DNA of 11,845 bases from DASVDK01 sp036562265 [NCBI: Thermodesulfobacteriota bacterium] (lineage in GTDB: Bacteria > DASVDK01). Under the pieces are notes generated by a model. The model did not search any database, had not been told where the DNA came from, and worked only from the letters and a program-made list of their open reading frames with translations. How positions within the stretch are numbered: position 1 is the first letter of the stretch; the number at the start of each line of letters is the position of its first letter. This document shows, in pieces, positions 1,858 through 4,046 of the stretch. A program made the position numbers and the translations under genes. The stretch lies in assembly GCA_036562265.1 (NCBI GenBank), contig DATCKS010000323.1, positions 1 to 11,845 on the forward strand, in the 5' to 3' direction.

Positions 1858-2415
1858 ATGACCACGCGCGGCGGGCGGCCGACGTCCCGGTCGGGGGCAG
1901 GGCGAAGAGGGGAAAGCGATCTCCGGTCGGACGCGGGCCGGCTACTCGAGCTCTTGCGGACGCTCCTCGGCGCCGCGTTCCGCCACCTGTTCTGGTCGTC
2001 GAGGGTGGCCGAGATCGAGCTCACCTTCGCGCAGGCGCAGATGCTCAACTACGTGGCCCGGCATCCGGGCTGTGCGATGGGCGACGTCGCGAGGCACTTC
2101 GGGGTCACCTTGCCGAACGTCACGCAGCTCGTCGATCGCCTGCAGCACAAGGGCTTCCTGAGCCGTGGCAGCGATCCGGCCGACCGGCGTGTCTGCACGC
2201 TGACGCTCACGGCGGAGGGACGAGGCCTGGTCGCCGAGCTCGAACGGCTGCGGGCCGGACGCCTCGAGTCGGTGCTCGCCCGGATGACCGTTCGCGACCG
2301 GGCGCGGGTGCTGAAGGGCCTCGAGGCGCTCGTCGAGGCGGCGCTCCGGGCGGGTGCCGAGTCCGACGACCCCGGGACCGGCCAGTCGCCGCGCTACCGT
2401 TCCTCCCCCCGGTAG
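1858..2415 (+). CDS. MarR-family transcriptional regulator
   Basis: Winged helix-turn-helix DNA-binding repressor, cytoplasmic dimer, probably controlling the divergent emrAB pump and itself in response to a phenolic or drug-like ligand (inference from family and position). Seen in 185 residues: a basic, Gly/Arg-rich N-terminal extension (about 1-22) not typical of the family, dimerisation helices (about 23-50), the helix-turn-helix (CAMGDVARHFGVTLPNVTQL, about 75-94), and the wing with the signature DPADRRVCTLTLTAEG (about 107-122), followed by C-terminal dimerisation helices. The ATG has no ribosome site but sits where transcription should begin. The last 22 bases overlap, tail to tail, the 3' end of the selenoprotein gene on the other strand. 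Confidence 0.93.
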   Translation: MTTRGGRPTSRSGAGRRGESDLRSDAGRLLELLRTLLGAAFRHLFWSSRVAEIELTFAQAQMLNYVARHPGCAMGDVARHFGVTLPNVTQLVDRLQHKGFLSRGSDPADRRVCTLTLTAEGRGLVAELERLRAGRLESVLARMTVRDRARVLKGLEALVEAALRAGAESDDPGTGQSPRYRSSPR

Positions 2416-3191
2416 CGTTCCCTGCGCCACCGGTACGGCAGGTCGACGATCACGCCGGGCGTCGACGCCGACACGAGGAGGTCGAGGGCGTCCTCGAGCA
2501 CCTGGCGCTGCTGGGCCGGGCGGCCGGGCTCGCCGAGCGGGTGTCCCATCGGCCACCGCAGATACACCGCGCGCGGCGGCCTCACCCGCTCGGTGACCTC
2601 CCGCACGAGCGAGATGCAGACGGTCGGGATGCCGGCCGCCTCGATGACCCTCGCGATCAGTCCCACGGACCGATTGCAGGAGGGTCAGGCCGGCGTGAGG
2701 ACCACCGCGCCGACGCGGGCGGCGACGAGTTCCCGCGCCACGACCGGCGCCGTCTCGCCGACGAGCGGCGCGACATCCCGGATCCAGCCGAAGCCGTAGT
2801 GCACCGGCGCCACGCCGCCGATCCGTCCGGCCGCCGCCAGTTCCTCGAGCCGGTCGAGCGGGAGGACGACGTTCACGTCGCGCCGGACGTCGCGGCTGTC
2901 GTAGTGGCCGTGGCTCACGACGAGCCGCCGCCGGTCGACGTCGCGCGGGATCCGCCGGAAGGTCGGATCGCCCTCGCGCGCGTCGAGGTCGAAGGGGGGA
3001 TCGGTGTCGAGGTGGACGCCCGCGGTCGTCACGAGCGCCACCGTCGTCGCGGCGAGCGACCGGGGCGGGGGCGCCCAGGGTACGTCCGTCGACCAGGTCA
3101 CCCGCCTCCGCGCCCAGAGACGCTGGAGAGCGGGGGAGGCGGCGAACGCCATGGCCCCCAGGCGATCGGCGAGACGTGCGAGCCGGCTCAC
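2394..3191 (-). CDS. GrdB-like selenoprotein (glycine/sarcosine/betaine reductase selenoprotein B family) with in-frame UGA = Sec169
   Basis: Seen: 266 codons in one frame, interrupted only by a TGA at 2685-2687 (codon 169) and ending at TAG 2394-2396. The stretch before it carries GRDB-family features: VALVTTAGVHLDTDPPFDL near residues 51-69, DVNVVLPLDRLEELAAAGRI, and GGVAPVHYGFGWI. It runs without a break into AVVLTPA-U-PSC and GLIARVIEAAGIPTV. The TGA lies where relatives of this family carry Sec or Cys, giving a U169-x-x-C172 redox pair. A SECIS-like hairpin follows directly. The GTG start at 3191 has a purine-rich ribosome site GAAGGGGGG (3206-3198) six bases upstream; an ATG at 3368 in the same frame would only add sequence antisense to the neighbour gene. 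Family knowledge: clostridial GrdB/PrdB cleave C-N bonds of glycine, betaine or D-proline reductively. The short stand-alone versions outside clostridia have no established substrate, so a redox enzyme role is inference. No grdA, grdC or thioredoxin genes are adjacent. Selenocysteine genes (selA, selB, selC, selD) must be elsewhere in the genome. Confidence 0.87.
2645..2687 (-). promoter_or_regulatory. Bacterial SECIS hairpin directing selenocysteine insertion
   Basis: On the minus-strand mRNA the UGA opens an 8-bp lower stem, UGACCCUC (2687-2680) with GAGGGUCA (2652-2645). Two more pairs (G2677-C2653, C2676-G2654) lie in between, and an 8-bp upper stem, AUCGGUCC (2674-2667) with GGACUGAU (2663-2656, one G-U pair), closes a GUG apical loop (2666-2664). 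Eighteen bases separate the UGA from the loop and the first loop base is G. These match the general bacterial SECIS rules (loop 16-37 nt after UGA, G in the first two loop positions, stable upper stem), and the spacing equals that in the E. coli fdhF element as I recall it. Pairings were checked base by hand; no folding energy was computed. Confidence 0.82.
2685..2687 (-). other. In-frame UGA codon read as selenocysteine (U169)
   Basis: The codon lies in the context A-V-V-L-T-P-A-U-P-S-C. Three residues later comes a cysteine, forming the UxxC redox motif of the GRDB family. The reading frame and family similarity are intact on both sides, so a terminating reading would discard 96 well-conserved-looking codons. 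Confidence 0.85.
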
Positions 3192-3197
3192 GTTCGG

Positions 3198-3206
3198 CCC
3201 CCCTTC
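3198..3206 (-). promoter_or_regulatory. Ribosome-binding site fixing the GTG start of the selenoprotein gene
   Basis: GAAGGGGGG on the minus strand lies six bases upstream of GTG 3191. It places the protein start at MSRLARLADRLGAM, which is where family members of this type begin, and makes the extended ATG start at 3368 unlikely. Confidence 0.6.
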
Positions 3207-3209
3207 GAG

Positions 3210-3215
3210 TAAGAT
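3210..3215 (+). promoter_or_regulatory. Candidate -10 element for the 3222 gene (leaderless geometry)
   Basis: TAAGAT is followed by six bases and then GTG 3222, the same geometry as at marR. A recognisable -35 is lacking: CTCACG 17 bases upstream matches only three consensus positions. The site sits in the 30-base gap to the divergent selenoprotein gene. Confidence 0.35.
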
Positions 3216-3221
3216 GTACCC

Positions 3222-4046
3222 GTGGACGCCGCCGTCGAGTTCGACCTCGAGATCCGGCCGGCCGGGTCGGGCCCCGTGCGCGCCATCACCGCCTCGGGGC
3301 TGTCGCTTGCGGACCTCCCGGCGCTGCGCCTCGCGCCCTTCGCGCGCGACTGGCTCATCGTCACTCACCTCGAGTCACCCGAACTCTACGACCGCACCCT
3401 CGCGGACCTCTGCCGGGTGACCGGCGTGGGGGGCGGACCGATAGACGGGACGCCCTACTACGCGTGCGAGCCGGGCGGAGCGCTGAGACTCTTCGCCACC
3501 CGGGCCGTCCAGGACGCCGACCACGCCATGCTCCTCTTCGCGCCGCAGCGTCCCACGGGGGCCGCCATGGCGAGGCTCGGCCTCGAGTCGACCGAGCGCT
3601 GGACCCCGCGGCGCCTCGGCGACGGGCTGTACGTGGAGTGCCGGGATCGCCGCGTCACCCTCTTCACCGAGTCCACGGACCTCTGCGCGCACGTCGTGAA
3701 CGGCGTCCTGCGCCTCGCCACCGGCCTCGACGACGACCACGTCCGGGCGCTCGCCATCGGCCTCGATCGCCACGCCGGGCGGTACGTCGTCGAGGAGACC
3801 CGCGAGGGACTCCGCCTCACGCGCCTCCCGTCGGGCGACGACGGGCCGAGGCTGCCCGAGGTCTTCCTGCGCACCCGGGCGGGGTGGGTGGTCGAGCCGA
3901 CCCCCGAGCCTCCGGTCGGGACGCCGGTCGCGGCGCCGGCCGACCGGGGCGTCCGTGCCCGCATGCGGCGGATGCTCGACGCGCTCGCCCGGGCCGCCCT
4001 CTTGCCCCCCTCCGCGAGGCAGCGCGTGAGGCGCCTCTTCAAGTAG
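3222..4046 (+). CDS. Hypothetical protein, unrecognised family
   Basis: I do not recognise this 274-residue product. Seen: no signal peptide and no membrane helix; a mixed alpha/beta-like composition; a Thr/Tyr/Cys-containing stretch near 72-84 (GTPYYACEPGGALRL); a segment with LLFAPQRPTGAAMARL; a short Pro-rich linker around residues 225-240 (EPTPEPPVGTPVAAPADRG); and a strongly basic Arg-rich C-terminal tail (RMRRMLDALARAALL..., ending RQRVRRLFK) that could contact nucleic acid or membrane. The codon pattern is like that of its neighbours, and the frame is open without alternatives, so it is probably real. A TAA lies 10 bases upstream in the same frame, which makes GTG 3222 the first possible start; no Shine-Dalgarno precedes it, so a start some codons downstream or a leaderless message are both possible. 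It is divergent from the selenoprotein gene with a 30-base gap, which hints at shared control but not at function. Confidence 0.7.
   Translation: MDAAVEFDLEIRPAGSGPVRAITASGLSLADLPALRLAPFARDWLIVTHLESPELYDRTLADLCRVTGVGGGPIDGTPYYACEPGGALRLFATRAVQDADHAMLLFAPQRPTGAAMARLGLESTERWTPRRLGDGLYVECRDRRVTLFTESTDLCAHVVNGVLRLATGLDDDHVRALAIGLDRHAGRYVVEETREGLRLTRLPSGDDGPRLPEVFLRTRAGWVVEPTPEPPVGTPVAAPADRGVRARMRRMLDALARAALLPPSARQRVRRLFK

Follow-up and report, generated by a model that had tools for sequence, protein, structure and literature searches.

Introduction

PrdA is a pyruvoyl protein and, as far as is known, the proline reductase reaction needs it. GrdB is described as the substrate-binding selenocysteine (Sec) subunit and PrdB as homologous to it (PMC13188914); the C-N bond is reported to be activated as a Schiff base before Sec attacks (PMC10838667). 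FarB, from the fluoroacetate reductase operon of Cloacibacillus, is a GrdB-like predicted Sec protein linked to a non-amino-acid substrate, to which the gene studied here can be likened by the published description, except that the FarB operon contains a GrdE-like partner (PMC10838667).

Proteins named PrdB are also described in sequence surveys. The Sargasso Sea survey gives 42 PrdB selenoproteins with a UXXC motif (PMC1088965, 2005), and the GOS survey gives 235 PrdB selenoproteins and 110 Cys homologues (pfam07355, UxxC) and ranks the family among the most abundant selenoprotein families (PMC2398784, 2008). A proline reductase selenoprotein is listed for Anaeromyxobacter dehalogenans and Geobacter uraniumreducens in a 2006 survey (PMC1794560), and 131 proline reductase selenoproteins are counted in 110 organisms in a 2016 survey (PMC5029168). 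In their passages on 'PrdB', the Sargasso Sea, GOS and 2006 surveys report no test of function and no search for PrdA, the passages of all four surveys leave the absence of PrdA undiscussed, and among the open-licence matches listed we recognised no paper on the function of a stand-alone PrdB.

Here we analyse one such gene, on the minus strand of a stretch of 11,845 nucleotides (the window). It resembles the 'proline reductase PrdB' of the surveys outside clostridia in its UxxC motif, its Sec and, for the GOS set, pfam07355, and setting the descriptions together we infer that they form the same group. An earlier note on this DNA had presented the gene as hidden and unusual, which is not supported, as non-clostridial UxxC PrdB/pfam07355 selenoproteins have been catalogued since 2005-2008 (PMC1088965, PMC2398784, PMC1794560). 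The gene adds a partnerless member to a selenoprotein family previously recorded in clostridia and in seawater.

Results

One reading frame is interrupted by a single TGA

The PrdB-like selenoprotein gene occupies positions 2394-3191 of the minus strand (265 codons), from a GTG start at 3189-3191 to a TAG stop at 2394-2396. When TGA is read as U, this frame gives 265 residues with a single TGA and a terminal stop; the TGA, at 2685-2687 (minus strand), encodes Sec169, the first position of U-P-S-C, in the context LTPAUPSCNRSVG. The earlier note's one minus-strand frame with a single TGA at U-P-S-C is thereby confirmed. Under translation table 11, the same frame is broken into two open reading frames, 2685-3368 and 2394-2666. 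A purine-rich stretch, GAAGGGGGG, lies just upstream of the GTG at 3189-3191, and a second in-frame GTG is found further upstream, at 3366-3368. We favour the start at 3191 because in four homologues (L019, L026, L044 and L024) the open frame extends just 2-6 codons past the matched stretch.

Both sides of the TGA have the character of coding sequence. Third-position G+C is 0.93 on the 5' side and 0.94 on the 3' side, inside the range of six other window genes (0.90-0.98). Identity to 24 aligned relatives is 34-48% over residues 38-168 and 37-56% over residues 170-257, and both halves therefore belong to a conserved protein. The sequences before and after the TGA do join, as had been claimed, with homology continuing past the codon.

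The TGA column is conserved in relatives

The homologue sample consisted of 52 genomes of one phylum, reached via the sole relative found in genome contigs ('Deltaproteobacteria bacterium UBA6967', L001), which has TGA at the same column. A match to the NCBIfam PrdB profile TIGR04483 at E <= 1e-10 was present in 45 of the 52 genomes, none above the cut-off of that profile. Among 68 homologue matches in these genomes, exactly one TGA was found in 67, and the 68th ends before the column; the TGA sits at the motif site in all 67 that cover it. Sec or Cys is what the earlier note had expected in this column, and outside the phylum sample the column carried TGA in the four plasmid PrdB sequences read (4/4; the Acetoanaerobium plasmid sequence L097 was left out of this reading) and Cys in the two alphaproteobacterial relatives, from Haematobacter and Roseomonas (2/2). 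These Cys-for-Sec relatives imply that the wider family can do without Sec. Two loci differed within the tblastn span, with one further stop in L028 and a second TGA in L049.

The motif itself is UxxC in 63 of the 67 homologues, and Asp replaces the second Cys in the other four, so a universal Sec/Cys pair does not fit. Further branches can be told by their motifs, UPVCHQ, UPNCTR and UPLDH. In alignment A1 (25 rows, including the window protein, 20 phylum homologues and the four plasmid PrdB), the invariant positions include Sec169, Cys172, D75, R79, H94, D105, E184 and R207. Cys172, encoded at 2676-2678 (minus strand) and invariant in all 25 rows, is the likely resolving thiol of the UxxC.

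A TGA that is simply a general sense codon in the source organism, for Trp for example, would have to be reconciled with the ten window genes scanned with Pfam, which are open under table 11, and with a column that is Sec or Cys in relatives; we give this reading next to no credence.

A conserved hairpin follows the UGA

A bacterial SECIS-type hairpin starts at the UGA and spans 2645-2687 (minus strand), with a core stem pairing 2668-2674 with 2656-2662. The 48 bases from the UGA fold with a minimum free energy of -26.8 kcal/mol (z -4.25), and one of 200 shuffles was equally stable. The seven-pair stem lies at a fixed distance from the UGA: across 68 sequences, the window included, all seven positions pair in 55, six in 11 and five in two, so that 96.8% of stem cells are paired. 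By comparison, 1000 synonymous shuffles with family codon usage averaged 74.3% and peaked at 80.0%, those with uniform usage averaged 67.6% and peaked at 72.5%, and pairing falls to 19-41% when the partners are slid. At several positions of the stem both partners vary, for instance CG, TA and GC at the second pair. Because the sequences are related, the counts are not independent events. Among 2000 GC3-weighted synonymous shuffles made for the window alone, 0.75% equalled its stem pairing and 0.05% its folding stability.

No SECIS family was reported by Rfam at the site even at E <= 5, and no match over the window reached gathering score. Two weak Rfam matches at that E-value, EAV_LTH and CcsR1, lie on the opposite strand and away from the UGA and were taken as chance.

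Two components of the Sec insertion machinery are common in the phylum sample. SelB was found above cut-off in 48 of the 52 genomes vs 2 of 14 controls, and tRNA-Sec passed the Rfam cut-off in 42 (41 at >= 52.9 bits) vs 5 of 14. Only tRNA-Sec matches above the cut-off were counted, because those at E <= 0.001 occurred in all 14 control genomes. No tRNA was found in the window itself. The UGA in a conserved UxxC and the conserved SECIS-type hairpin are the grounds on which SelB and tRNA-Sec would insert Sec at UGA codon 169, and SelB recoding at the hairpin is well supported by these comparisons.

The one point in favour of a pseudogene, or of a sequencing error in which the TGA is a mutated or misread Cys codon, is that the window is a single record. 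Such an accident would leave the TGA of all 67 homologues, stem pairing in excess of synonymous shuffles, and protein-like conservation and GC3 on both sides of the codon to be explained, and we assign it a very slight chance. The in-frame stop is almost certainly read as selenocysteine, and on the sequence evidence we hold with great confidence that the gene is genuine: it is a selenoprotein gene, neither a pseudogene nor a sequencing error.

The protein is PrdB-like rather than GrdB-like

According to the earlier note, the joined product was a full GRDB-family protein. The Pfam GRDB profile (PF07355) does pass its gathering score of 22, at 37.3 bits, yet it covers residues 35-166 only (profile positions 212-345 of 347), and the claim of a full-length match is not supported on this point. 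The best profile was TIGR04483 (PrdB), which spans the TGA and aligns residues 38-257 to positions 19-236 of 238, nearly its full length, at 166.7 bits; its equivalog cut-off of 300 is not reached. The models for GrdB, GrdF and GrdH, the Sec subunits of glycine, sarcosine and betaine reductases (TIGR01917, NF040794 and NF040795), scored 48-54 bits, below their cut-offs of 602-800, and TIGR01918 scored 51.2 bits, below its cut-off of 65.45. Homology to these subunits lies in the C-terminal half, and their profiles of 431-435 positions contrast with a product of 265 amino acids, which is near PrdB length. The protein is thus PrdB-like in sequence, and 'GrdB-like' is true at superfamily level only. 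The in-frame TGA, combined with the 300-bit threshold of TIGR04483, could cause such genes to go unnamed or be split in annotation.

A tblastn search of plasmids matched 24 records. PrdB-type matches at 36-45% identity came from Terrisporobacter, Ligilactobacillus, Enterococcus, Peptoclostridium, Acetoanaerobium and Paraclostridium, most of them annotated as PrdB and some unannotated. Identity was 42-45% to the annotated PrdB of Terrisporobacter, Enterococcus and Ligilactobacillus by tblastn, and 40-42% to the four plasmid PrdB in A1, where Sec occupies the same UxxC column. The window protein differs from PrdB in its motif (U-P-S-C-N-R, against U-G-T-C-H-R), in an N-terminus about 20 residues longer, in its score under the equivalog cut-off and in the lack of any Prd family among the window genes scanned. 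Relatives at 35% identity were found in Haematobacter and Roseomonas, named 'glycine/sarcosine/betaine reductase selenoprotein B family protein'. They belong to the same superfamily, carry C-P-x-C for U-P-x-C and likewise have no Grd or Prd gene annotated in the stretches shown; they differ in length (~300-310 codons), in having Cys instead of Sec and in forming a separate tree branch.

Viral contigs scanned with the window protein and with alignment A1 contained no relative, and sequence searches of the PDB returned nothing credible. A structure prediction from two sequences had a mean pLDDT of 52.2 and a pTM of 0.59. In this low-confidence model, Sec169 lies between a strand (162-166) and a helix (172-185), in a block of pLDDT 64-81, and a Foldseek search with it gave nothing at E <= 0.001. 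We make no fold claim, because the model is weak and Foldseek was without a match.

The window protein joins the phylum homologues in the best tree

In a 72-row tree (without the three short rows L081, L083 and L085), the four PrdB form their own group, and a weakly supported node (85/75) joins the window as sister to a clade of 32 rows. In a thinned tree of 57 rows (without L081, L083, L085, L080, L064, L052 and 12 thinned rows), the window again groups with the 32-row clade (93/94). The letter make-up of the window sequence departs from that of the alignment in both trees, and its placement is tentative.

These placements bear on the possibility that the protein is a true PrdB, a subunit of a D-proline reductase for which prdA is encoded at another place in the source genome. 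Besides the 42-45% identity to annotated PrdB, two results speak for it: over residues 38-168, identity is higher with the four PrdB from plasmids (47-48%) than with the 20 phylum homologues in A1 (34-45%), and a tree constrained to join the window to PrdB is not significantly worse (p-AU 0.185). The stretch after the TGA points the other way, being nearer to the phylum homologues (44-56%) than to PrdB (37-42%), as do the best tree, which joins the window to those homologues, and a TIGR04483 score far under the equivalog cut-off. The best identity of the window protein in A1 is 47%, and the nitrilase of the window is at most 44% identical to proteins in the phylum; by these sequence comparisons, the window does not look like a close member of the 52-genome phylum.

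PrdA and other partners were not found among the genes scanned

The Pfam scan of the window covered ten genes, two ORFs cut by the window ends being left out. These comprise a HlyD-type protein, a MarR-type regulator, an ORF without a Pfam match, a 2-hydroxyacid dehydrogenase, a trypsin/PDZ (HtrA-type) protease, a metallophosphoesterase, a short ORF without a match, a nitrilase-type hydrolase, an amidohydrolase and a beta-eliminating lyase. None of them matched a Grd or Prd family, in agreement with the earlier note, which had found none of the usual partners adjoining.

The flanking genes are the MarR-type regulator (1858-2415, plus strand; PF12802, 55.6 bits), which is convergent and whose 3' end runs into that of the selenoprotein gene, and the 274-codon ORF without a Pfam match (3222-4046, plus strand), which is divergent and whose listed start lies 30 bases from that of the selenoprotein gene. 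Neither is thought to belong with it. The two divergent starts, 30 bases apart (3191-3222), make a shared control region possible. Judged from its translation alone, the truncated gene beside the HlyD-type gene reads as an MFS efflux pump; over 1-2415, a MarR gene divergent from a HlyD-type and a truncated MFS-like gene is a common drug-efflux arrangement.

In the phylum sample, PrdA (TIGR04480) matched in none of the 52 genomes, 45 of which have the PrdB-like family; the same search matched in the three plasmid control records (3/3, two above cut-off). In each of three annotated plasmid clusters, prdA precedes prdB with a gap of 300-400 bases, and no PrdA-type family occurs among the ten window genes. 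Together with the tree and the sequence after the TGA, these counts make a true PrdB improbable. An autonomous protein is the reading we prefer: independence from PrdA in the source organism is likely on the sequence evidence, and the window's branch probably has a function other than 'D-proline reductase'. The family is named for a reaction that, as far as known, needs PrdA; with the family in 45 of 52 genomes and a PrdA match in none, what these enzymes reduce becomes a concrete, testable question.

Partners of the Grd type were also rare. A PF09338 domain, which we take to be the GrdE-type subunit, matched in one of the 52 genomes, and GrdA likewise in one (G006). The PF09338 gene (G011:C103:3309-3911) lies right after L080, the most divergent member, whose motif is U-G-T-C-N-R; this locus may be a genuine one of Grd or Prd type in the phylum. 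On the Peptoclostridium acidaminophilum plasmid (L093:7941-8654 region), a 594-codon open frame just before prdB has no gene annotated and matches PrdA below cut-off (556 bits, record 258978-260267).

We clustered neighbouring ORFs of at least 70 codons within 7 kb at 68 loci and examined the 40 widest clusters, among which there was no widely conserved neighbour. Setting aside the selenoprotein gene and a frame antisense to it, clusters of at least 10 loci fall mostly inside the 32-row clade; they include a divergent alanine-racemase-N protein (Pfam; presumably YggS-like) at 19 loci, 18 of them in the clade, and a CoA-transferase-like protein, named by eye, at 13 loci (11 in the clade). Clusters that spread beyond the clade reach at most 7 loci, at scattered distances. 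The 20 of 153 listed neighbours scanned with Pfam were diverse, the only repeats being an O-methyltransferase after L021 and L053 and a histidine kinase after L042 and L063.

A stand-alone Sec enzyme is the favoured reading

Taken by analogy with described reductases, the simplest scheme has Sec169 as nucleophile and Cys172 as resolving thiol. Sec169 would attack the substrate, Cys172 would resolve the selenium intermediate as a Se-S bond, and a thioredoxin-like donor would reduce that bond; PrdB and GrdB contribute this half-reaction to proline and glycine reductase. The predicted position of the motif, between a strand and the start of a helix, fits such a scheme and proves nothing. With no pyruvoyl subunit of PrdA or GrdE type, there would be no imine activation by such a partner, so the substrate is probably not D-proline and would need to carry a leaving group that does not depend on an imine. 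We think reduction of an activated carbon-heteroatom (or S/Se) bond of a small metabolite the most likely mechanism. Overall, we put a probability of about 0.75 on a stand-alone PrdB-like selenoprotein in which Sec attacks the substrate, no pyruvoyl subunit takes part and such a bond is likely reduced.

A general Sec/Cys redox protein, active in thiol-disulfide, peroxide or selenylsulfide reduction with no carbon-heteroatom cleavage, would accord with the frequency of UxxC in redox selenoproteins as the surveys describe them (PMC2398784, PMC1088965) and with neighbourhoods in which a conserved metabolic partner was not found. It sits less easily with the invariant polar residues at a distance from the motif, which a substrate site would be expected to have, with the second Cys absent in 4 of 67 homologues, and with Pfam and NCBIfam searches that gave no thioredoxin-type family match (Foldseek was uninformative). 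We consider it unlikely and retain the stand-alone substrate-reducing enzyme as the better account. A broader proposal, that non-clostridial 'PrdB' selenoproteins as a whole are autonomous selenoenzymes, their Sec alone reductively cleaving a metabolite, and that they are not proline reductases and so wrongly named in the literature, is tentative, and we would place it somewhat short of an even chance.

Two groups of homologues depart from the common architecture. L021, L022, L046 and L053 form a sub-branch with U-P-L-D-H for UxxC, in which the second Cys is lost; a Sec enzyme of this kind would need an external resolving thiol. Directly 3' of L021 and L053 lies the O-methyltransferase gene (PF00891). 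In L063, L066 and L069 (motif UPNCTR or UPFCTR), the frame continues 171-191 codons beyond the matched stretch, possibly as an extra C-terminal domain.
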